In this document: positions 1-39,065 of the stretch, in pieces
Numbering within the stretch: the first letter of the stretch is position 1
Layout: each line of letters opens with the position of its first letter
NCBI GenBank assembly: GCA_002010665.1
Contig: MTON01000037.1
Span: 1-40,026, forward strand
DNA from: Candidatus Aminicenantes bacterium JdFR-78
Lineage (GTDB): Bacteria > Acidobacteriota > Aminicenantia > JdFR-78
Length of the DNA: 40,026 nt
Reading direction: 5' to 3'
Position numbers and translations under genes: made by a program
The notes under the pieces: model-generated
What the model was told of the DNA's origin: nothing
Databases searched by the model: none
What the model saw: the letters and a program-made list of their open reading frames with translations, nothing else

Positions 1-742
1 AATTTTCACCGTATTCTTTTTCGAAAAGGATTATTGTTTCTCTGCCAGAACAATGGCATGGAGCTGCTTTTTGAACCCCAAAATCTTTAAAGTCATATAT
101 AACCTTTTCTATTTCTCGTTTTGAGAAACCCGCCATATGAAAACCTCCCAAAACCAGATATACATTTCCCTTAACTATTTCTTTGGCTTTTGACACGATT
201 AATATAATTCCTGGATGAGCACAACCTGTTATAACAATCAATCCTTTTCCTGTCTTTAAAATAAGGGATTGTTCTTTTATCCAAGTCCCGAGAACTCCCG
301 TGGTATAAACATTTTCAATAATCTCCTGCGGACCTTTAACCTCCCGAAGAACTGCTCCTTTCTCTTTAATTTTATTTTTAAATTTTGCAGAGAAAGTCTC
401 AGGAACCCATACTTCTACTTTATTTTTTATATTAAAAACACCCGTGTGATCGCCATGAGCATGTGAAAGGAAAATTATGTCAATTTCAGCTGGCTCAATT
501 TCTAATTTTTTCATATTAGAAAGGAGAGTTTCATTACTTCCCCCGGTATCAAATAATATTGTTTTTTCAAAACCACGTATCAAACAGGAAAAACCCCATT
601 CAGTTTTCAATTCTTCATTGAAAGGATTATTATCATAAACAATAATAATCTCTGGATTTTTATTTTTCTTCATCCCTATTACTCCTAAAAAAGAAATTAA
701 AATTATAAAATTTATTAGAAAAAACTTGAGATTATCTTTCAT
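1..742 (-). CDS. Membrane-anchored metallo-beta-lactamase fold hydrolase, 3' end cut by window edge
   Basis: About 247 residues are visible and the C-terminus lies beyond position 1. An N-terminal hydrophobic stretch (about residues 5-22, NLKFFLINFIILISFLGVIG) looks like a signal anchor, followed by an MBL-fold domain. The metal-binding signature SHAHGDHTG is at about residues 90-98, and downstream conserved pieces are TGCAHPG, GGFHMAG and APCHCSG. This set resembles the MBL subgroup annotated as dihydropterin/ribofuranosyl-aminobenzene phosphate synthase-like; the substrate is unknown. The start at 742 is chosen because its ATG overlaps the TGA of the upstream ferredoxin (ATGA) and has a GGAGG ribosome site six bases before it. 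It is the last visible gene of the metal/Fe-S cluster. The family call is firm; the function is not. Confidence 0.85.
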   Translation of the reverse strand, partial: MKDNLKFFLINFIILISFLGVIGMKKNKNPEIIIVYDNNPFNEELKTEWGFSCLIRGFEKTILFDTGGSNETLLSNMKKLEIEPAEIDIIFLSHAHGDHTGVFNIKNKVEVWVPETFSAKFKNKIKEKGAVLREVKGPQEIIENVYTTGVLGTWIKEQSLILKTGKGLIVITGCAHPGIILIVSKAKEIVKGNVYLVLGGFHMAGFSKREIEKVIYDFKDFGVQKAAPCHCSGRETIILFEKEYGEN

Positions 743-1005
743 TTCCTCCATGCCAACTCATTAATTTTTTTATTTAGCCTGTTTATTTTATGTTTTAAAT
801 TTTGAATTTTTTCTTTTAAATCATCTATTTCTGAATAAGATACAAATTCGATTGCTCCTAAGGGACATACAGAAGAACATGTTCCACATTTGATACATCT
901 TGAAACATCTATGAAAGCTTTTCTATTGATAAGAGAAACGGCACCAGTAGGACAATATTGAATACACAGCCCGCATCCCCTGCAATTTCTGTTTATTCTG
1001 GACAT
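739..1005 (-). CDS. 2[4Fe-4S] ferredoxin with C-terminal coiled coil
   Basis: An 88-residue protein with two bacterial-type 4Fe-4S motifs, CRGCGLCIQYCP (about residues 9-20) and CIKCGTCSSVCP (about 37-48). It should carry low-potential electrons in the cytoplasm. The last 30 residues are charged and heptad-like (LKEKIQNLKHKINRLNKKINEL), a tail most small ferredoxins lack but one that echoes tails on the small proteins encoded at 3106-4284. It is four bases from the upstream zinc-ribbon gene and overlaps the following MBL gene by four bases, so translational coupling is likely. The partner enzyme cannot be read from sequence; the neighbouring Mrp and NifX-like proteins are candidates. Confidence 0.9.
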   Translation of the reverse strand: MSRINRNCRGCGLCIQYCPTGAVSLINRKAFIDVSRCIKCGTCSSVCPLGAIEFVSYSEIDDLKEKIQNLKHKINRLNKKINELAWRK

Positions 1006-1008
1006 TCA

Positions 1009-1248
1009 TTAATCCCTTCTGCAAATTCCATCCAATGAACAAGGTGGTATATCACACCTTTCTGTTCCTCCACAGCAAGTTGTCCCACTTTGAGTGGATT
1101 CGCCCATCATTACTGCACCAGGAATGGATAGTAACTTCTCTAATTCCCTTGAGCCACAATTTGGACAATTTGGTTTTTCTTCAATAGTCTTCTGAAAAAT
1201 TTCTATTATTTTCCCACAATTTTTACATTTGTACTCATAAATGGGCAT
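1009..1248 (-). CDS. FmdB-type zinc ribbon protein with Cys-rich C-terminus
   Basis: A 79-residue protein starting MPIYEYKCKNCG, the hallmark of the FmdB/CxxC_CxxC_SSSS putative regulatory family. A second CPNCG at about residues 29-33 completes a zinc ribbon. The C-terminal third adds five cysteines (TTCCGGTERCDIPPCSLDGICRRD spans them), more than the minimal FmdB ribbon and possibly a second metal site. A strong ribosome site (GGGAGGGAAGGGAG) precedes the ATG. The role of FmdB proteins is poorly defined; here it sits between a second zinc-ribbon protein and a ferredoxin in the metal cluster, which suggests metal handling or an accessory role. The family call is secure and the function unknown. 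Confidence 0.85.
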   Translation of the reverse strand: MPIYEYKCKNCGKIIEIFQKTIEEKPNCPNCGSRELEKLLSIPGAVMMGESTQSGTTCCGGTERCDIPPCSLDGICRRD

Positions 1249-1300: not shown

Positions 1301-1522
1301 TTATTCCCTTATCATTCTCGTTCCACACTTTGGACAGGAAACCTGATTACAGGGAACTCCTCTCTGATGAGAAATTCTTGTGCCACAGGAAGGACATACA
1401 CAATAGCCTCCTGGTCCTAAACCTCCTCCTCTTCCTCTGCCAAATCCTTGACCGCCTCTTCCTCGACCCCATCCGCCACCAGGTCCTTTGTCCATTGGGC
1501 CAGTGCCATTTCCTCTCGGCAT
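1301..1522 (-). CDS. Small Gly/Arg-rich protein with C-terminal zinc ribbon (DUF5320-like)
   Basis: A 73-residue protein. Residues 1-40 are almost entirely Gly, Arg and Pro (MPRGNGTGPMDKGPGGGWGR begins it); the C-terminal 33 residues hold two CPxCG knuckles (CPSCGTR and CPKCGTR) plus HQRGVPC, forming a likely zinc ribbon. The Gly-rich start resembles the MPRGDGTGP-type small proteins found near Mrp and NifX genes in anaerobes. The start codon has AAAGGAG seven bases upstream. It lies 28 bases after the mrp-like gene in the same direction, so it is probably co-transcribed. Biochemical function is unknown. Confidence 0.8.
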   Translation of the reverse strand: MPRGNGTGPMDKGPGGGWGRGRGGQGFGRGRGGGLGPGGYCVCPSCGTRISHQRGVPCNQVSCPKCGTRMIRE

Positions 1523-1550: not shown

Positions 1551-2366
1551 TCAGTCTTTCTTTAACTGATTGATTATTCTTTCCACTATATTATTAAAGG
1601 CTTTTGTTGCCTCAGAATCAGGTTGATTCAGGATAAAAGGTTCTCCACTATCTCCGGATTCTACAATTCGAGGATCAATCGGAATTCTTCCTAAGAACGG
1701 AACTCCTAATTCCTTTGCTGCTCTCTCACCGCCACCTTTTTTGAATAAATCTATTCGCTTTCCGCAATAAGGGCATATAAATTCACTCATATTTTCTATG
1801 ATACCTAGTATTTTTAAATTTAATTTCCTGGCAAATAGAACTGCTTTTTTTGAATCAAGAAGGGACACCTCCTGAGGCGTGGTAACAATTATAGCCGCAG
1901 TAGCAGGAATTAACTGAGCTATTGAGAGAGGCTCGTCTCCAGTCCCAGGAGGAGAATCCACTACTAACCAGTCAAGTTCACCCCATTTTACATCTCCAAG
2001 AAATTGCTGTATTGCTTTCATTTTCATTGGTCCTCGCCATATCACCGGCAAATCAGGACTTTCCAATAAAAAAGCCATTGAAACAAGTTTTAAATTCTCT
2101 GTAACTCTAACTGGAAGAAGATAATTTTCTGAAATACCCATTCTCTCATTTTCTACACCGAGCATTTTTGCTAAATTTGGTCCATGAATATCCACATCAA
2201 GAAGACCAACCTGCATTCCTTTTTCACTCAATGCAAGAGCAAGATTAGCTGCCACAGTGCTTTTTCCAACTCCTCCTTTTCCACTAAAAATTAAAATTCT
2301 ATTTTTAATTTTCGCCAAATTCTGACTAACTCTTTTATCAAGCTCACTTAATGTCTGCTGTTCCAT
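1551..2366 (-). CDS. mrp: Mrp/NBP35 family iron-sulfur cluster carrier ATPase
   Basis: A 271-residue SIMIBI-class P-loop ATPase. The deviant Walker [10 protein letters not shown] is at about residues 30-38, the switch DVDIHGPN near 58-65, and [11 protein letters not shown] near 135-145. A CPYCG pair (about 200-204) is the CxxC that bridges an Fe-S cluster between two subunits in Mrp/ApbC/NBP35 proteins. The family binds and transfers 4Fe-4S clusters to target apoproteins in the cytosol. It lacks the N-terminal MIP18/FeS-assembly (DUF59) domain of longer Mrp proteins. It follows two NifX-like genes and precedes zinc-ribbon and ferredoxin genes, consistent with cofactor or cluster delivery. GGAGGTAAAAG precedes the ATG. 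Confidence 0.93.
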
Positions 2367-2390: not shown

Positions 2391-3083
2391 CTACATTTTA
2401 AGTCTTTTTTTATATTCAGTAATTATCTCTTTAATTATACCACTTGCTCTAGTTACTGTTTTTATTCCTGCAGTATTCAAAATTTCAAATGCATTTGGAC
2501 CTATATTGCCTGTTAACAAAACATCAATTTTCTGATTTATTATAAATTGAGCAGTTTTTATTCCTGCTCCTTGAGGCTCTTCTTTATAAGGATTCTCAAT
2601 TGCTTTATAGCTCATTGTGTTTAAATCAATAATAAGAAGATATTTTGCTCTTCCAAATCGAGGGTCCACCTCAGAATCTAAATTATTGCCTTTCGAGGTT
2701 ACACAGATTTTTTGAGAATAAAAGTGTTCATGTTGACATTGATGCATTTCACTGAGATGAGTACACTTACTTTCTCCAATTTCAAGTTCATTATTAATAA
2801 ACTTCTGGATTATATCGTCTGCTTTACCACTAACTCCAATGACTGTCTCTATACCTTTTATCTTAAATAAATTTTGTGCTCTTGGACCCATTCCTCCTGT
2901 AATAACACAATTCACACCATACTCTGCTAAAAATTGAGGAAGAAATCCTGGCTGATGTCCTGGATTATGGATGATTTCCTTATTAATAATCTTTCCTTTC
3001 TCAATCTCATATATTGCATAAGCCTTACATCTTCCAAAATGAGCCGACACATCACCATTATCTACAGATACAGCCACTTTCAT
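2391..3083 (-). CDS. Tandem NifX/dinitrogenase iron-molybdenum cofactor domain protein
   Basis: A 230-residue protein made of two copies of the NifX/NafY/NifB-C-terminal fold. The first covers about residues 1-100 (AHFGRCKAY, then CVITGGMGPRAQNLF), the second about 125-228 (DPRFGRAKYLL, then LLTGNIGPNAFEIL). The family binds Fe-S or Fe-Mo type cofactor precursors, but no nitrogenase genes are visible here, so this is a NifX-like protein of unknown cargo. The linker holds a dense Cys/His patch (C107, H109, H114, C116, H118, H120) that could bind metal. It lies 22 bases after the next NifX-like gene and 24 bases before mrp, in one apparent operon. Confidence 0.9.
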   Translation of the reverse strand: MKVAVSVDNGDVSAHFGRCKAYAIYEIEKGKIINKEIIHNPGHQPGFLPQFLAEYGVNCVITGGMGPRAQNLFKIKGIETVIGVSGKADDIIQKFINNELEIGESKCTHLSEMHQCQHEHFYSQKICVTSKGNNLDSEVDPRFGRAKYLLIIDLNTMSYKAIENPYKEEPQGAGIKTAQFIINQKIDVLLTGNIGPNAFEILNTAGIKTVTRASGIIKEIITEYKKRLKM

Positions 3084-3105: not shown

Positions 3106-3684
3106 TTACTTTTTCTCCTTTTCTAATTCTTTTATTCTTCTGTTAATTTTTTCAATTTGCTGTCTCAAAAATTCTGCATGTTGCTTCAAAGTTTCTATTT
3201 CTTCCTCAGGAGAAGAAGGTGGAGAAGGTGGAAAAGGGTGCTGACTTACAGGTCCAAACCCCATTCTTCCTCTTCCCATTCCTCTTCCCCATCCAGGACC
3301 CATTTGCTGACCAGGTCCATATCCCATTCCAAAATGGGGCGGAACATTTGGCTGAGCTGTAGGTCTTAATGTTCCTGATTTATATTGTTGGATTGCATCT
3401 TTAACTGTTCCAGCAACACCAATTATCACTTCTATCCCAGCTGCTTGAAGGGTTTGAAAAGCATTGGGACCACAACTTCCTGTAAGGACTGCTTTAACTC
3501 CTTTATTAGCAACAAGCTGTGCTGATTGAATACCTGCGCCACCCGGAGCACCAACATTGGGATTTTCAATCGCTTCAAATTCCAAAGTTTCTGGGTCTAC
3601 AAAAATAAAATAAGCGCATCTCCCAAATCTTGGGTCAACCGGACTCTCCAGATCAGGACCGGATGAAGTTATTGCAATTTTCAT
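3106..3684 (-). CDS. NifX-like protein with Gly-rich linker and coiled-coil tail
   Basis: A 192-residue, three-part protein. Residues 1-105 form a NifX/dinitrogenase iron-molybdenum cofactor domain (VDPRFGRCAYFIF, GAGIQSAQLV, LTGSCGPNAFQTL). Residues 106-155 are rich in Gly, Pro, Met and Arg. Residues 157-192 are a charged heptad-type helix (EEEIETLKQHAEFLRQQIEK and onward) closely matching tails of the two upstream small proteins. The Gly-rich plus coiled-coil part is DUF5320-like, so this looks like a fusion of the NifX fold with that module. The stop of the upstream gene overlaps this start by four bases. Cargo and partners are unknown. Confidence 0.88.
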   Translation of the reverse strand: MKIAITSSGPDLESPVDPRFGRCAYFIFVDPETLEFEAIENPNVGAPGGAGIQSAQLVANKGVKAVLTGSCGPNAFQTLQAAGIEVIIGVAGTVKDAIQQYKSGTLRPTAQPNVPPHFGMGYGPGQQMGPGWGRGMGRGRMGFGPVSQHPFPPSPPSSPEEEIETLKQHAEFLRQQIEKINRRIKELEKEKK

Positions 3685-4039
3685 TTTTTCCCTTCTAATT
3701 CCTGAATCCTCTTTTCAATTGCTTCTAATTCGTTCTCGAGTTCTTGAGCTTGAGTTTTCAGAAATTCCAATTCCTCCTCTTTCCTAAGACTCATTGCACC
3801 CCATGGGTCATATGGAGTGGGGAAGCCTGCTTTTGGAAAACCAGGAGCTGGAGAAAATGGAATTTGTCCACTCTGCCAGAAATAACCCATTTGTGGAGTG
3901 GGCCACCTTCTTGTTAATAAATATTGAATAGCTGGACCCAATCCCATAGAACCTCTACCCAGCCATCCAGGAGAAAACCAAACCTCATCCATCCTGGCAA
4001 ACCGGTTAAACGGAACCACCATCTATGTCTATGCCTCAT
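3681..4039 (-). pseudogene. DUF5320-like coiled-coil protein gene with an apparent one-base frameshift
   Basis: The uninterrupted downstream frame runs from an ATG at 4022 to 3681 (113 residues), but that ATG has no ribosome site. The strong site GGAGGTG at 4046-4052 sits six bases before a different ATG at 4039. Read from 4039 the protein begins MRHRHRWWFRLTGLPGWMRF and then meets a stop shortly after. The other frame continues with FSPGWLGRGSMGLGPAIQYL. Joining them at the A-run 3974-3977 (one extra base needed) gives LPGWMRFG-FSPGWLGR, which reads as one continuous domain, followed by a C-terminal coiled coil (residues EEELEFLKTQAQELENELEA onward). So the gene is either genuinely frameshifted, recoded, or carries a homopolymer sequencing error. 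The corrected length is about 119 residues. Confidence 0.72.
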
Positions 4040-4056
4040 TATAATCACCTCCTTTT

Positions 4057-4284
4057 TTATTTAGTTTTTTTAAGCTCAGTTAATCTCTTATTAATCTGAG
4101 TTAATTCATCCTCCAGAATTTTCTTTTGCTGTTCAAGCATTGCTTTTTCCTCTTCCTCATTTAATGGAGAATATGGGAACCAGTAGGGAAAACTATACCA
4201 AGGATAGCCATATCCCCAATATCTCATCCATTGAACAAAATATGGCAACATAAACCATCCTGCTGGTCCCATTCCAAAAGGCAT
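4057..4284 (-). CDS. Small aromatic-rich protein with C-terminal coiled coil (DUF5320-like)
   Basis: A 75-residue protein from the ATG at 4284, chosen because GGAGGTG lies just before it; a longer frame to 4302 would start at TTG and swallow the ribosome site. Residues 1-42 are rich in Trp, Tyr, Phe, Pro and Gly (GPAGWFMLPYFVQWMRYWGY). Residues 43-75 form a charged helix (EEEEKAMLEQQKKILEDELT onward) with the same pattern as the tails of the two following genes. No enzyme motif is seen. It is probably a structural or scaffold component; function unknown. It sits in the Fur-box-headed operon. Confidence 0.75.
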   Translation of the reverse strand: MPFGMGPAGWFMLPYFVQWMRYWGYGYPWYSFPYWFPYSPLNEEEEKAMLEQQKKILEDELTQINKRLTELKKTK

Positions 4285-4314: not shown

Positions 4315-4572
4315 TTAACTTGACTTCCCGGTTTGGGGTTGAGTTTCACTTTGATAACCATATCCGGGCCATTGTGGCCAGCCCATCCCGAATGGATAGC
4401 CAAAATAAGGAATTGTTCTTAAATAATAACCTGTATAAGGTGAAGCCCACCACCATCTCGGTAACCACGGAAACCATCTACAAAAGGGAAAAGGATTTCC
4501 TCTACCCCAACCCCAAAAGGGATAGCCAAACCATCTCATGGCGCCCCAACCTCTTCCAAATCCTCTTGGCAT
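4315..4572 (-). CDS. Small Trp/Tyr/Phe/Gly-rich protein, first gene after the Fur box
   Basis: An 85-residue protein beginning MPRGFGRGWGAMRWFGYPFW. Nearly half the residues are aromatic or Gly, with PWLPRWWWASPYTGYY in the middle and a polar tail (SETQPQTGKSS). It lacks the coiled-coil tail of its neighbours and has no recognised domain. GGAGGTGAG precedes the ATG. The start MPRGFGRG resembles the zinc-ribbon protein encoded at 1301-1522, so the two may share an ancestral N-terminal module. It is the first gene downstream of the Fur-box-like site at 4586-4606. Function unknown; the coding call rests on the ribosome site, the codon pattern and the operon context. Confidence 0.7.
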   Translation of the reverse strand: MPRGFGRGWGAMRWFGYPFWGWGRGNPFPFCRWFPWLPRWWWASPYTGYYLRTIPYFGYPFGMGWPQWPGYGYQSETQPQTGKSS

Positions 4573-4585
4573 TTTCTCACCTCCT

Positions 4586-4606
4586 TGATAATGATAATCA
4601 TTTTCA
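4586..4606 (-). promoter_or_regulatory. Fur-box-like operator before the small-protein/NifX/mrp cluster
   Basis: Two overlapping 7-1-7 motifs, TGATAATGATAATCA (4586-4600) and TGATAATCATTTTCA (4592-4606), each match the Fur consensus TGATAATnATTATCA at 13 of 14 defined bases. The site ends two bases from the ribosome site of the gene starting at 4572 and lies within the 51-base gap after fur. I see no convincing -35/-10 pair around it, so the promoter it acts on is inferred. Confidence 0.75.
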
Positions 4607-4623
4607 ATAAATTTGAAAAAAAA

Positions 4624-5070
4624 TTATTTGCATTTACTGCAAATTCCATAAAATTGAATTTTATGATCTTTGATTTCAAAATTATATTTTTTGGAAAGAG
4701 CTTCCTCCACTTTTTTTACTAATTCTATTTCCTCTTTTACAAAATCATCGTAATCAATTATTTTTCCACATTTAACGCATACTAAGTGATGATGATGATT
4801 CTTCTTAATCCCGGAAGCAAGTTCATATCTACTCTGACCGTCTCCAAAATCGAATTTTTTTAATAGTCCCATTTGAACAAGGAGATCAAGTGTGCGATAT
4901 ATTGTGGTGAGACCAATTGCAGGATAAATTTTATGAACTGCAGAATAAATTTCCTTCGCACTTAAGTGTTTTGATGTTTTACTCAAAAGCTCTAAAATAG
5001 CTTGGCGAGGAAAAGTGAGTCTGTAACCACAACCTCTAAATCTATGTCTCCACCAATGAGGTCCACTCAT
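4624..5070 (-). CDS. fur: Ferric uptake regulator (Fur) family repressor
   Basis: A 148-residue Fur-family regulator. The N-terminal winged helix (about residues 15-80) includes LTFPRQAILELL and GLTTIYRTLDLL. The dimerisation/metal domain has KKNHHHHLVCVKCGKIIDYD (about 88-107) and a closing CSKCK, giving two CxxC pairs for structural zinc. The start is set at 5070 (MSGPHWWRHRF) because GAGGAG precedes it; a longer frame to 5139 would run back through the operator and core promoter. The Fur-type operators at 5084-5098 and 4586-4606 favour Fur over Zur or PerR, but specificity within the superfamily cannot be proven. It probably represses itself and the cluster that follows. Confidence 0.9.
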   Translation of the reverse strand: MSGPHWWRHRFRGCGYRLTFPRQAILELLSKTSKHLSAKEIYSAVHKIYPAIGLTTIYRTLDLLVQMGLLKKFDFGDGQSRYELASGIKKNHHHHLVCVKCGKIIDYDDFVKEEIELVKKVEEALSKKYNFEIKDHKIQFYGICSKCK

Positions 5071-5083
5071 ATTTCTCCTCAAT

Positions 5084-5098
5084 TGAAAATGATTTTCA
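5084..5098 (-). promoter_or_regulatory. Fur-box-like operator in the fur leader
   Basis: TGAAAATGATTTTCA is a perfect 7-1-7 inverted repeat that matches the Fur 7-1-7 consensus at 12 of 14 defined positions. It lies just downstream of the expected fur transcription start (about 5104) and upstream of the ribosome site, a position suited to autorepression. Confidence 0.7.
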
Positions 5099-5110
5099 TT
5101 ACCAATTAAT

Positions 5111-5139
5111 AATATAATCTCTAAATTCAAGTTTGTCAA
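5111..5139 (-). promoter_or_regulatory. Sigma-70 type promoter of fur
   Basis: On the minus strand TTGACA (5139-5134), a 17-base spacer and TATATT (5116-5111) form a near-consensus promoter. The predicted start near 5104 falls immediately before the Fur-box-like repeat. Confidence 0.75.
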
Positions 5140-5161: not shown

Positions 5162-5202
5162 TTGACCTTAAAAATCAGTTATTTTAAAATTTAACTCAAA
5201 GA

Positions 5203-5526
5203 ATGAAAATCTTATTGAAACCTGAAACAAAAATAAGACTGAAAAAAAGTAATATTCTTTGTCTTCTTGTTATTTTATTCCTTTTCTCCATAGTTACGCT
5301 TTTCATTGATTTTCTTCATACAGAAACAACTCTTTCGAGTAAAGAATTCTGTCCAGCCTGTAATTTCCACAATTCTTCAATTACCACAGGAAAATTTAAC
5401 TTTTTATCCCTCCCTTCTTTAGTTTTTATTAAGGTATTAAAGATATTTGATTTTTTCAATTACAATCAGGAATATATTGTCAACCCTTCTTCCCGATCCC
5501 CTCCAATTAATATACCTTCCAATTAA
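5203..5526 (+). CDS. Small membrane protein with CPAC motif preceding a TonB receptor
   Basis: A 107-residue protein with a Lys-rich N-terminus, one clear membrane segment (about residues 19-38, ILCLLVILFLFSIVTLFIDF), then FCPACNFHNSS (about 49-59), a second less hydrophobic stretch (about 67-85) and a C-terminal SSRSPPINIPSN. The layout of membrane segment, CxxC and a terminal RxPP resembles small exported proteins that precede TonB receptors in other Gram-negatives, but I cannot assign a named family. The CxxC could bind a metal or be a redox pair. There is no ribosome site before the ATG. It lies 54 bases upstream of the TonB receptor in the same direction, suggesting a shared role in uptake. 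Confidence 0.6.
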   Translation: MKILLKPETKIRLKKSNILCLLVILFLFSIVTLFIDFLHTETTLSSKEFCPACNFHNSSITTGKFNFLSLPSLVFIKVLKIFDFFNYNQEYIVNPSSRSPPINIPSN

Positions 5527-5580
5527 TCTTTCAATTTCCGATCCCACTTGAAATTTAAAATTTAAAACGAGGAGGGGAAA

Positions 5581-7851
5581 ATGAGATTAAAAAAATTATT
5601 AATAATAAATCTAATAATCCTAATAGTTCTATCTTATTCTTCCATTTTTGCCGAAGAGACTAACCAGAAACAAATGAGGCTATTTACAATAAAAGGAAAG
5701 ATTATAGATTGGGAAGAAAAACCAGTAAAAAAAGCAGTGGTTTTAATTCCAGAACTTGGTAAATCAGTGGAATCAGATGATTCAGGCAATTTTGAAATAA
5801 ATGGAATCCCTGAGGGAAGATATCACATAGAAGTCTATGCAGAGGGCTTTATAAATTATTCTTCTGATTTTTTCATACTAAAACAGAATGAGCTCAATTT
5901 TAGAATAATCCTTATAAAAAAATTAAAAGAGGAAATAGTTGTTACTGCTACAAGAACCCCAAAATTATTCGATGAGGTTCCGGTTAAAACTGACGTGATA
6001 AATGCAGAAGAAATTGTAAATAAGGCTGCTGTGAACCTGGCTGAGACACTTTATCAGACCACAGGTGTAAGGGTTGAAAATGACTGTCAGAACTGTAATT
6101 TCACTCAGGTTCGAATAAATGGAATGGAAGGGAAATATACTCAGATTCTTATTGATAGCTCTCCTGTTTTAAGCGCTATGACAGGAGTATATGGGCTTGA
6201 GCAAATTCCAGCCGAGATGATTGAAAGGGTGGAGATTGTAAAGGGAGGAGGTTCAGCTCTTTATGGAGGAAATGCTGTCGCTGGTGTCATAAATGTTATA
6301 ACTAAAGAACCAGAGGAAAATAAGACTTTCCTGAAACTTAATCAGGAATATATTTCAGGTCAGCCTTATACAAATCTTGGCTTTCGTTCCAGCCTTATTT
6401 CAAAGGATTTAAATACAAAAGCATATCTATTTGCAAGCTATCAAAAGAGAGAGCCAGTGGATTTAAATGGAGATGGATTCTCTGAATTAGGTTCAATTTC
6501 TAATACTTCTTTTGGGCTTAATTTTTACAATTATTTTCCCTCAATTAACGGGAAAATTAAACTCAGTTTTTTCAGAATATTTGAGGAAAGAAGAGGAGGA
6601 GACCTTTTTGATAAACCTCCCCATGAAGCAAATACGGCCGAATGGGCGAAAACAGATCAAATAGGCTTTAGTTCAGAGTGGAATCATTATTTATCTGAAA
6701 AACTGTATTATAATATTTCCTTTTCCATTGTTGATGCTAAAAGAAATACATATTATGGAAGCCATCAAGACCCAAATGCTTATGGACTTACGAGAAATCC
6801 TTTGTTATTTTTCAATGGGCAGTTAAACTATCAGACAGGCAGTCATGTTCTATCTCTCGGATTTCAATATAAAAGAGACAGAATAAAAGATGAGGCAGTT
6901 GGATATAATAGGATAATCAAAGCCACATATCATGAAAGCGGTTTCTTTTTGCAGGATGATTTTAAATTAAGTCGAATCATATCAATTTTGACAGGAATAA
7001 GGTTAAATAAACATTCAGCGATAAAGAAGCTAATAGTAACCCCGAGATTCAGTATACTGTTAAATCTAACTGAAACTCTAAACTTTAGAACTTCATTTTC
7101 TACTGGATTCAGAGCACCTCAGGTTTTTGATGAAGATTTACATATAACCCAGGTTGGTGGTGAGGGAATGATGGTTGTTAATTCCCCTGATTTAAAGGAA
7201 GAAAGCTCCTTTAGTATTAGTGGTGGTTTTGATTATGGAAAACAAATTGGAAAAAATTTAATTCAATTCAGTGTGGAAGGATTTTATAGCAGGCTTTCAG
7301 ACACATTTATTCTCCGTGAAATAAAACGAATTGAAAATGCACGAATTATGGAAAGAATAAATGGCTCTGGCTCAAAGGTTTATGGATTATCCTTTGATTT
7401 TGGTTTAATTTTAGGACCAAAAATCAATTTCTCTTCGGGATGGACCATTCAGAGGAGTGAACTTGACGAGCCTGAACCGAATTTTAATTGCAGGGAATTT
7501 TTTAGAACACCCAATAGTTATGGTTATGTTACCATGAATTACAAAAATGAGAGATTAATTAATATGAATATTTCCATGGAATACACAGGGAAAATGAAAG
7601 TTCCTCATTTTGCTGGATATATTGAAAAAGATACCCTTGAAATAACATCTCCATTTTATGTATTAAATATTAAAATCGATAGAATTGTTAATTTCTCAGA
7701 AAATACAGCTGTACGGTTTTTTATCGGAGCATACAATATACTCAACTCTTATCAGAAGGACTTGGATAAAGGAGTGAACAGAGACTCGGGTTATGTTTAT
7801 GGACCTTCTAAACCAAGAACTTTTTATGCAGGCTTTGAATTTTCATTCTGA
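5581..7851 (+). CDS. TonB-dependent outer-membrane receptor with carboxypeptidase-regulatory-like domain
   Basis: A 756-residue receptor. A signal peptide covers about residues 1-25, an Ig-like carboxypeptidase-regulatory domain about 33-112 (KGKIIDWEEKPVKKAVVLIP), the plug about 115-235 (EEIVVTATRTPKLFDEVPVK to GVINVITKEP), and a long beta-barrel follows to a terminal phenylalanine (AGFEFSF). The plug carries NDCQNCNF, a CxxC insert. Such receptors import metal chelates, haem, vitamin B12 or other ligands using TonB energy; the ligand cannot be read here. Proximity to fur favours an iron-related substrate, though no strong Fur box lies directly upstream. GGAGGGG precedes the ATG. The 3' end overlaps the convergent radical SAM gene by 28 bases. 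Confidence 0.93.
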   Translation: MRLKKLLIINLIILIVLSYSSIFAEETNQKQMRLFTIKGKIIDWEEKPVKKAVVLIPELGKSVESDDSGNFEINGIPEGRYHIEVYAEGFINYSSDFFILKQNELNFRIILIKKLKEEIVVTATRTPKLFDEVPVKTDVINAEEIVNKAAVNLAETLYQTTGVRVENDCQNCNFTQVRINGMEGKYTQILIDSSPVLSAMTGVYGLEQIPAEMIERVEIVKGGGSALYGGNAVAGVINVITKEPEENKTFLKLNQEYISGQPYTNLGFRSSLISKDLNTKAYLFASYQKREPVDLNGDGFSELGSISNTSFGLNFYNYFPSINGKIKLSFFRIFEERRGGDLFDKPPHEANTAEWAKTDQIGFSSEWNHYLSEKLYYNISFSIVDAKRNTYYGSHQDPNAYGLTRNPLLFFNGQLNYQTGSHVLSLGFQYKRDRIKDEAVGYNRIIKATYHESGFFLQDDFKLSRIISILTGIRLNKHSAIKKLIVTPRFSILLNLTETLNFRTSFSTGFRAPQVFDEDLHITQVGGEGMMVVNSPDLKEESSFSISGGFDYGKQIGKNLIQFSVEGFYSRLSDTFILREIKRIENARIMERINGSGSKVYGLSFDFGLILGPKINFSSGWTIQRSELDEPEPNFNCREFFRTPNSYGYVTMNYKNERLINMNISMEYTGKMKVPHFAGYIEKDTLEITSPFYVLNIKIDRIVNFSENTAVRFFIGAYNILNSYQKDLDKGVNRDSGYVYGPSKPRTFYAGFEFSF

Positions 7852-27944: not shown

Positions 27945-29969
27945 TTATTTTTCTTTTTTATCTTTATCTTTTTTGTCTTCTTTGCGCTCCCAAGGTTTCC
28001 AATCTATTCCCATCACATATTTTTGCATCCATTTAATTTCTTCGATATCTCTTGTCCGCTGATGTCTTGGCTCCCTGAATCCGTGAGGCTCTCGGGGAAA
28101 TCTAATATATCTAACTGTTTTTCCCATATCTTTTAGTGCAGTAAATAATAACATACTTTGGTGTTCGGTGCACGTCCTATCCTTTTCTCCATGCATTATT
28201 AGTGTTGGAGTATTTATATTTTTCACATACGTGAATACAGACCTCTTGGTATAGCCTTCTGAATTGTCCCATGGTGTTCCACCAATATACCAGAGTCTGA
28301 CATCATAATTAAAACCAGCTCCATACTCTGATATCCATAGAGCGACTAAAGCACCCAGGGAAGCAGCTTTAAAACGATTGGTCTGGGTTATAGTCCATGC
28401 TCCAAGTATACCTCCATAACTCCAGCCACGAATTCCCATTCTTTCTGGGTCAACATATCCCATTTTTATCACATAATCAACTCCTGTCATTAAATCCCAG
28501 TAATCTCCTCCACCAATATCATACATATTTCCTCTTAAAAACTCATCTCCATAGCCTGTACTTCCCCTCACATTTGGGCACAGGGAGGCATAGCCCAGAC
28601 CTGCCCATACATGATATCTATATGAAAAACTATTAGTAAAAACCCCTGCTGGACCTCCGTGAACATGCAAAATCAGGGGCAATTTTTTCTTTCCATTGTA
28701 ATTAGGAGGAAGATAGAGAATTCCTTCAATTTCAAGTCCGTCTTTACTTTTCCATCTAATTACTTCTGCTTTTGCAAGAAGAATCTCTTTTTCAATCCAT
28801 GGATTTGCATTAGTCAGTCTTATTGGCTCAAATTTCTCAGTTGATGAAACATATAAATCCGGAGGTGTATCAAAGTCTGAAAATAGGTAAACCATTTTCC
28901 TACGGTCTTTGGAAAAAGAGCTGGCAAATAGACTTCCCTTAACGTGTGTTAACTGAATTACTTCCCCTGTTAAAACATTGATTTTATATAAATTTGAATT
29001 AGTCCTCACTAATCCAGTGAAAAGTATATACTTACTATCCGGTGTCCAGACATAATTCCGTATTTGTCCATTAAACTTACTGGAAATTAATCGATACTCC
29101 TTTGTTTCTGGATTCATTACCCATATCTTATTCTGTCTTAATTCCCATTTCTTATCATCAGGAGCAATATATGCGAAGAATTTTCCATTTGGAGCCCATT
29201 GCAAATACCTTTCAGGTGCTTTGTTTTCAGTTAAACGAATTTTCTCCTTTTTTTCTAAATTAAATAGATATATTTCAGATAAATACTCTTGATTTCTCCT
29301 ATTTTCATATCTTGCAGTGAAAATTATTTTCATGCCATCAGACGAAATATCAAAATCTTTTATTATAATTTTCTCATCTGTAATTTTTCTTTCCTTTTTA
29401 CTTTTTAAATCCTCCATCCATAAATTCTGCCAGTGTCCTTCAACCTGACCATTTGGCCCCTCATCAACAAATAGAGCATCATATCCCGCCTTGTACTTCT
29501 CTTCTTCCTCTTTAGTTCTTGCATCAGGAGCTAAAAAGAAAATTTTAGTGGAATCAGGAGACCATTTGAACGAAATAATACTCGTTTTATGCTTTGTAAG
29601 TTGAACAGCTTCACCTCCAGATGTACGCATAACAAAAATCTGACTTTTCTTATCTTTTTTTCTTAAGAAAGCAAGGTACTTACCATCCGGTGAAAAACGG
29701 AAAGATTTTCCCCCAGCTTCTCCTATGTATTGAAATTCTTCTCCCCCTTCTGCTGGAATCATGTAATATGTGACTTTCCTTTTATTTTTAGACCAGTCAA
29801 GTTCAGATTTAGAAAATAAGACCCATTTTCCATCAGGCGACATAACTGCATTTCCAACCCTTACCATATTTAATCCATCATCAACTGTCATTGGGCGTTT
29901 TTCAACTGCGTATACCCCATTTATAATAAAAAGTAAAAGAATAGCCACTAAGAGTAACCTTTTCCTCAT
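27945..29969 (-). CDS. S9 family prolyl oligopeptidase/acylaminoacyl-peptidase
   Basis: A 674-residue exported serine peptidase. A signal peptide (LLLVAILLLFIINGVYA) is followed by a WD40-like propeller (about residues 25-400, with recurring SPDGK phrases such as MSPDGKWVLFS and FSPDGKYLAFL). The alpha/beta-hydrolase domain has LILHVHGGP, the nucleophile GIRGWSYGGILGAW, TLIMHGEKDRTC for the Asp and FPREPHGFREP for the His. It should cleave short peptides in the periplasm or outside, fitting a peptide-fermenting lifestyle. The Lys-rich C-terminus is likely unstructured. Confidence 0.93.
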   Translation of the reverse strand: MRKRLLLVAILLLFIINGVYAVEKRPMTVDDGLNMVRVGNAVMSPDGKWVLFSKSELDWSKNKRKVTYYMIPAEGGEEFQYIGEAGGKSFRFSPDGKYLAFLRKKDKKSQIFVMRTSGGEAVQLTKHKTSIISFKWSPDSTKIFFLAPDARTKEEEEKYKAGYDALFVDEGPNGQVEGHWQNLWMEDLKSKKERKITDEKIIIKDFDISSDGMKIIFTARYENRRNQEYLSEIYLFNLEKKEKIRLTENKAPERYLQWAPNGKFFAYIAPDDKKWELRQNKIWVMNPETKEYRLISSKFNGQIRNYVWTPDSKYILFTGLVRTNSNLYKINVLTGEVIQLTHVKGSLFASSFSKDRRKMVYLFSDFDTPPDLYVSSTEKFEPIRLTNANPWIEKEILLAKAEVIRWKSKDGLEIEGILYLPPNYNGKKKLPLILHVHGGPAGVFTNSFSYRYHVWAGLGYASLCPNVRGSTGYGDEFLRGNMYDIGGGDYWDLMTGVDYVIKMGYVDPERMGIRGWSYGGILGAWTITQTNRFKAASLGALVALWISEYGAGFNYDVRLWYIGGTPWDNSEGYTKRSVFTYVKNINTPTLIMHGEKDRTCTEHQSMLLFTALKDMGKTVRYIRFPREPHGFREPRHQRTRDIEEIKWMQKYVMGIDWKPWERKEDKKDKDKKEK

Positions 29970-38954: not shown

Positions 38955-38966
38955 TTTCCATCTTAT

Positions 38967-39065
38967 GGCTTAGGATTTTCTGGGCACCTGCTGGAACCTA
39001 CTTACCGCTGCTACCTTCCGGTCCTGACGGGGTTCATAGGCCCAACACCGCCCAGCTCCTAAGCC
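38967..39065 (-). ncRNA. ffs: Signal recognition particle RNA, small bacterial (4.5S) type
   Basis: The minus strand carries GTCAGGACCGGAAGGTAGCA and GCGGTAAG, the universally conserved SRP domain IV tip with its GGAA tetraloop and internal loop. The ends pair: GGCTTAGGA (39065-39057) with TCCTAAGCC (38975-38967), defining an RNA of about 99 bases without an Alu domain. It binds Ffh and targets nascent membrane proteins. It sits immediately upstream of dnaX, an order also seen in Bacilli (scr-dnaX-ybaB-recR). Confidence 0.95.

Follow-up and report, generated by a model that had tools for sequence, protein, structure and literature searches.

Genes and Features of the Locus

The window, i.e., the whole stretch of 40,026 nucleotides that was analysed (contig MTON01000037.1 of Candidatus Aminicenantes bacterium JdFR-78, assembly GCA_002010665.1), contains a gene of a Fur-family regulator on the minus strand, followed in the same direction by a cluster of genes (Table 1). 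The fur gene starts with the ATG at position 5070. Along the minus strand, its stop codon (4626–4624) is followed by a tract of eight T residues (4623–4616), 9 nt of further sequence, a double Fur box (4606–4586), the ribosome-binding site AGGAGG (4585–4580) and the ATG of the first small gene (4572). An earlier note on this DNA had placed the box directly ahead of the ribosome-binding site of that gene, and this was confirmed, with the two elements adjoining each other. The divergent unit of a TonB-dependent receptor (5203–7851) has a promoter-like site of its own (5162–5190), which does not overlap the Fur box of the fur promoter, and direct control of this unit by Fur is not evident. The only Rfam match in the window was a bacterial small SRP RNA gene (38965–39064, minus strand, RF00169, 74 bits); no Rfam element was found at the internal site between fur and the cluster.

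Table 1. Features of the fur locus and the gene cluster that follows it (positions in the window).
Feature	Position	Strand	Remarks
Ferredoxin with 4Fe-4S domains	739..1005	-	
FmdB-type zinc ribbon	1009..1248	-	PF09723, 1e-15
Small Gly-rich protein with two CxxC pairs	1301..1522	-	
Mrp/NBP35-type iron-sulfur carrier ATPase	1551..2366	-	PF10609, 1.3e-102
Protein with two NifX-like domains	2391..3083	-	PF02579, 4.5e-49
NifX-like (Nitro_FeMo-Co) domain, basic Gly/Pro/Arg tail and coiled coil	3106..3684	-	PF02579, 7.6e-27; PF17253, 7.3e-11
DUF5320-like protein	3681..4022	-	25.9 bits, just under the Pfam cut-off of 27
DUF5320 protein	4057..4284	-	PF17253, 1.2e-9
85-aa Trp/Gly/Pro/Arg-rich basic protein, first gene of the cluster	4315..4572	-	27 aromatic residues, pI 10.1
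Ribosome-binding site AGGAGG of the first small gene	4580..4585	-	adjoins the internal box
Internal double Fur box	4586..4606	-	reads TGAAAATGATTATCATTATCA on the minus strand; lies in the gap from fur to the first small gene
Promoter-like TTTTCA-17-TATCAT	4591..4619	-	weak, 9/12; overlaps the T-tract and the box; p 0.15, not above chance
T8 tract	4616..4623	-	directly after the fur stop codon, 9 nt ahead of the internal box
Fur-family regulator, 148 aa	4624..5070	-	Pfam FUR, 2.2e-36; two CxxC pairs
Weak inverted repeat TTTGCA-GTAAA-TGCAAA	4627..4643	-	last fur codons before the T-tract; -6.6 kcal/mol
Double Fur box in the fur promoter	5084..5104	.	one mismatch to the 21-mer; over the predicted start site
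fur promoter TTGACA-17-TATATT	5111..5139	-	11/12, near-consensus sigma-70

Downstream Gene Cluster

The 85-aa protein encoded first in the cluster had no Pfam match and stands where the relatives have their DUF5320 gene. The small proteins had earlier been called otherwise uncharacterised; this holds only in part, since the DUF5320 family can be named and NifX-like and Mrp proteins are encoded downstream. Literature searches found no paper on the function of DUF5320, and no paper, judged by title and abstract, that linked Fur to NifX-like clusters of this kind.

Mrp/NBP35 ATPases are carriers of iron-sulfur clusters. The combination of an Mrp ATPase with Di-Nase (Nitro_FeMo-Co) domains is similar to that in the MrpORP/ORP system of Desulfovibrio, where the Di-Nase domain of MrpORP binds an iron-sulfur cluster (PMC6345978). 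Unlike in MrpORP, these parts are encoded here by separate genes located beside the Fur and DUF5320 genes, and the Mrp-type ATPase scored 384 bits with the NCBIfam MrpORP model, below the cut-off of 450. In addition, the product of ORF 3106–3684 contains a Nitro_FeMo-Co domain and a basic Gly-rich tail (residues 107–155; pI 12.0, 12 Gly and 11 Pro), in accordance with the plan of IssA, the thioferrate storage protein of Pyrococcus furiosus, in which the Nitro_FeMo-Co domain is followed by a Pro-rich, Gly-rich basic tail (PMC5524996). It differs from IssA in that the tail is a coiled coil at its end and is less aromatic, and in being bacterial. IssA serves as a store of iron and sulfur at times when both are abundant (PMC5524996), whereas a Fur box at the cluster implies expression at low, not high, iron; storage of the IssA type therefore sits badly with repression by Fur. 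Judging from the sequence, the cluster probably handles iron-sulfur units, and delivery of iron-sulfur clusters or scavenging at low iron would be the better guess for its role.

Double Fur Boxes at the Internal Site and in the fur Promoter

The internal site consists of two overlapping 7-1-7 boxes, TGATAATGATAATCA (4586–4600) and TGATAATCATTTTCA (4592–4606) on the plus strand. With TGATAATNATTATCA as the reference and at least 12 of 14 matching bases as the threshold for a Fur-type operator, each of the two boxes matched at 13 of 14 positions, with one mismatch. The recount thus agreed with the earlier note, which had reported the two motifs with the same match, and the uniqueness of the site in the genome further bore it out. 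A search of all 42 contigs (2.53 Mb) for the 21-bp double form TGAWAATGATTWTCATTWTCA revealed only one place with zero mismatches, namely 4586–4606; the next-best 21-mers were the fur promoter box (one mismatch) and two sites on contig 23 (two mismatches). Single 7-1-7 boxes with at most one mismatch were found at three places in the whole genome, two of them at 4586–4606. Allowing up to two mismatches gave 85 places per strand, compared with 35 in the reversed control, and several of the inspected genome sites with one or two mismatches lie within coding sequence (C16:26408, C4:96539, C4:97788) and were discarded as candidates. A scoring matrix made from the fur promoter boxes of other genomes, with the window left out, gave the internal site 29.1 of a maximum possible 29.4; in 100 shuffled windows, the scores reached 25.0 at most (mean 11.9). 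A near-palindromic element, TGAAAATTATTTTCA, at 29312–29338 lies inside a peptidase-like reading frame and is probably due to chance.

That the box is an accident of AT-rich intergenic DNA is extremely improbable. The region is indeed AT-rich, and boxes with three mismatches within the window are at noise level (13 vs. 8.2 expected), but the exact 21-mer occurs nowhere else in the genome and its position is conserved across three phyla, so that a chance match was rejected.

The box in the fur promoter, absent from the earlier note, forms a matched pair with the internal box around fur. The promoter hexamers are TTGACA (5139–5134) and TATATT (5116–5111), separated by 17 nt. A box upstream of fur is nearly universal among the orthologues, with a TTGACA-17-TATAAT logo ahead of it (94 upstream regions), and the fur promoters of this set scored 11.7 vs. 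4.0 for shuffles. Overlapping 7-1-7 dimer sites and Fur autoregulation are known from E. coli and B. subtilis, and a box on the start site leads to repression by metal-loaded Fur. The fur promoter described here resembles these systems in the operator sequence, in the overlapping pair offset by 6 bp and in the operator position on the fur promoter start. Unlike in these systems, a second operator is located after the regulator gene, behind a T-tract and ahead of the downstream gene. Because fur also has a matching box, fur and the cluster would answer to the same kind of operator.

The two contig 23 sites are the only other copies within two mismatches of the 21-mer in the genome. They flank a fur paralogue (L065:1058–1501, minus strand; boxes at 1018–1038 and 1511–1531), i.e., they repeat the two-box layout. 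Since boxes of the same type lie beside it, this paralogue may likewise act at 4586–4606. The feoB gene of this genome (contig 29, L183:1072–3009) had no Fur-like double box nearby, the best site having six mismatches, and the regulon therefore looks very small.

Identity of the Regulator and Its Signal

The regulator belongs to the Fur family, with a FUR domain and the CxxC...CxxC structural Zn site, and its closest solved relative is the Fur of 9ire. Alignment gave H35, E83, H93, H95 and D106 as the regulatory ligands. Asp106, which is Asp in most orthologues, aligns with Asp104 of PerR and with Glu108 of Fur (FurBS), and so the Glu of Fur proper is replaced; of the two PerR residues, Asp85 and Asp104, only the second has a counterpart (Glu83 and Asp106). 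NCBIfam models gave 137 bits for Fur, against an equivalog cut-off of 220, and 102 bits for PerR, also under its cut-off. In the contig 23 paralogue, the position matching Asp106 is occupied by Glu.

The residue at this position decides peroxide sensitivity (PMC4866751), and with a PerR-type Asp the signal may therefore be iron plus peroxide. The regulator is similar to PerR of B. subtilis and PerR3 of B. licheniformis in its Fur-family domain, the Zn-site cysteines and the Asp at the peroxide-determining position; PerR3 has, like the regulator here, Glu at the position of Asp85 (PMC4866751). It differs from both in its Fur-type operator (TGA...TCA) and in its linkage to NifX-like, Mrp and feo genes. 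One could assume that the regulator is functionally a PerR, which senses peroxide through its Fe2+ site, and that the role of the cluster is to repair iron-sulfur proteins, or to protect them, following oxidative stress. Asp106, its prevalence among the orthologues, its known effect on peroxide sensitivity and a peroxiredoxin gene near the cluster in one locus (L046) speak for this assumption. We nevertheless consider it rather unlikely, as the operator is not of the PerR type of the B. subtilis boxes, NCBIfam favours Fur over PerR, although both scores are below the cut-offs, and the feoAB neighbours point to iron. The type of operator and the linkage to feo are good support for an iron signal, and an added peroxide response is possible; with Asp106, either of the two may be the main signal. 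The tie of the small proteins to iron proposed in the earlier note is strengthened by feoAB beside fur (13 of 30 Atribacterota loci) and by the NifX-like, Mrp and ferredoxin genes, and has to be widened to a signal that may include peroxide.

Comparison across Genomes

Close fur orthologues were drawn from the class (142 genomes) and phylum of the window, from Atribacterota (50 genomes) and from the phylum of the Acetofilamentum sp. SulCav record (147 genomes); the related sequences share ancestry and hence are not independent. In most loci, fur is followed by NifX-like genes and has Mrp and DUF5320 genes beside it; feoA and/or feoB adjoin fur in the 13 Atribacterota loci mentioned above. The internal box was counted, by scoring with the matrix of upstream boxes that left out the window, in the 57 loci in which a DUF5320-type gene comes next after a close fur orthologue. 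It was present in 25 of them, namely in 16/19 loci of Atribacterota and 7/11 of the third phylum, yet in only 2/27 of the window's class (the window itself and L019), the other 25 having no such box. A Fur-type operator is accordingly found at a conserved place in three phyla. In all 25 box-bearing loci, fur and the DUF5320-type gene are at least 51 nt apart, and 26 of the 32 gaps without the box are shorter than this.

In the tree of the regulators, the window's Fur takes a basal position on the class side, and that of L019 groups with the other phyla. The basal position of the window's Fur gives no support to the idea that its lineage acquired the cassette by horizontal transfer. An old internal box may have been lost in most of the class, or the box may have been gained separately.

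T-Tract between the fur Stop Codon and the Box

A run of at least six T residues between the fur stop codon and the box was found in 24 of 32 loci, compared with 5.7 expected for the same letters shuffled. The distance from the end of the T-tract to the box is mostly 9–12 nt; that from the box to the start codon varies from 13 to more than 100 nt. The box is not preceded by a long T-tract in L137, L149 and L168. In the 50 Atribacterota genomes, the pattern T6-N8-13-box occurred at eight places, all directly after fur and in the fur direction, and at none in the reversed control. Among all fetched loci, T6 or longer plus a near-palindromic 7-1-7 element followed 17 of 101 Fur-family genes vs. 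2 of 643 others; these counts ignore shared ancestry and are a strong pointer rather than a p-value. Because the layout was spotted in these same sequences, the T-tract counts are no independent test of it.

The same arrangement occurs after the contig 23 paralogue, where T7 and 10 nt precede the second box, followed by a gene for a 240-aa protein without a Pfam match that resembles an outer-membrane barrel; it is repeated at the orthologue of this paralogue in a relative (L196). Elements of a similar kind were seen at other regulator genes. In L198 (approximately 1266–1335), T7 and, 10 nt further on, the perfect 7-1-7 palindrome TAGGAATCATTCCTA come after a PerR-like gene and ahead of a gene that looks by eye like that of a catalase; in L199 and L200, T9 and a palindrome-like element of the AAGAATCGTTACGAA type lie between a PerR-like gene and a gene of a 1-Cys-type peroxiredoxin.

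A hairpin ahead of the T-tract was significant against shuffles for only 1 of 25 T-tracts, and an intrinsic terminator with a conserved hairpin was rejected on this ground. The inverted repeat in the last fur codons (Table 1) is a possible weak terminator in this genome and is not conserved in the relatives. The T-tract before the box is conserved without a conserved hairpin and without a promoter consensus.

Possible Action of Fur at the Internal Site

On the earlier note's view that fur and the cluster are separately controlled, the internal box would be the operator of a separate promoter of the cluster, and the T-tract would end the fur transcript. The restriction of the boxes to gaps of at least 51 nt agrees with such a promoter, as do the window's TTTTCA-17-TATCAT, the weak hairpin before the T-tract and candidate hexamers in several Atribacterota loci, where TTGAAA at the box start is 15–18 nt from a TAAAAT/TATATT-like hexamer (p 0.02 in L138). 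However, the search for sigma-70 promoters at the internal site, performed in a narrow and then in a wide range, gave nothing above chance for the group in either range; across 24 loci, the best score was 5.8 vs. 5.7 for shuffled sequences, while the fur promoters stand far above theirs. There is also no conserved hairpin before the T-tract. In the window, the internal box and the ribosome-binding site leave no space between them for a promoter, and the start predicted from TTTTCA-17-TATCAT would fall on the latter. Promoter overlap or adjacency was accordingly found for the box at 5084–5104, and nothing above chance for that at 4586–4606. We rate a separate promoter at somewhat less than an even chance. 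Of the earlier claim that fur and the cluster are separately controlled, the Fur-type operator for the cluster stands, owing to its conservation in three phyla, and the second promoter does not emerge from the scores.

Without a promoter above chance at the internal site, Fur is just as likely to control transcription that reads through from fur as to act on a separate promoter. Fur bound at the internal box could be a roadblock, at which polymerase coming from the fur promoter halts with its RNA-DNA hybrid on or near the T-tract and is released, i.e., a Fur-dependent terminator that needs no hairpin. The spacing of 9–12 nt between T-tract and box in most loci, set against the variable distance from box to start codon, argues for this, together with the enrichment after Fur-family genes, the eight Atribacterota places and the T-tract with a different palindrome between PerR-like and catalase-like genes. 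Repression by roadblock is known for CodY, CcpA and LacI (PMC4132739), and the CodY and CcpA work is cited in PMC4324032. These roadblocks are similar to the internal site in having the operator inside a transcription unit; the site described here differs in the T-tract positioned directly upstream and in being predicted from sequence. On the other hand, the known roadblocks free polymerase mainly via Mfd (PMC4132739), the predicted stop is roughly aligned with the T-tract and no better, three loci carry the box without a long T-tract, and many of the examples are of common ancestry. Intragenic Zur boxes of B. subtilis repress in cis and behave in the same way in a zur mutant (PMC4324032), which calls for caution in assuming a roadblock. 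We find a Fur roadblock plausible, though short of an even probability. More generally, it is a tentative and rather doubtful proposal that Fur-family genes of several phyla carry a regulated hairpinless terminator right after the stop codon, in which release at T7–8 would need a Fur dimer about 10 nt downstream as the roadblock. If so, a second promoter would not be required for the regulator to switch off the gene downstream of it.

Proposed Model and Its Meaning

The internal site is real and very probably functional. In agreement with the observed boxes, their conservation, the fur promoter and the gene linkage, we consider it quite likely that 4586–4606 is a true operator of the neighbouring Fur-family regulator and that control proceeds through both boxes. 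Metal-loaded Fur would bind the two double boxes; on 5084–5104 it would cover the start of the fur promoter, leading to autorepression, and on 4586–4606 it would shut off the cluster of DUF5320-type, NifX-like, Mrp and ferredoxin genes. Expression of the cluster would accordingly be expected under iron scarcity, or once peroxide has inactivated the regulator. At the internal site, Fur would most likely act on RNA polymerase at the boundary of the T-tract and the box, and it would either halt the polymerase that reads through from the fur promoter or mask a weak start inside the box; under either mechanism the cluster is expected to rise when Fur is inactive.

The real box, the matched pair around fur and the recurrence of the box with a T run in three phyla make a working iron (or iron/peroxide) switch for the cluster very likely. 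The recurring T-tract is the most interesting part. DUF5320, NifX-like and Mrp genes, which are poorly known outside nitrogen fixation, would thus be placed under a Fur-family switch in three phyla, with a signal that can be tested. In addition, the recurring layout of stop codon, T-tract and operator suggests a compact way in which a repressor may separate itself from its downstream gene.
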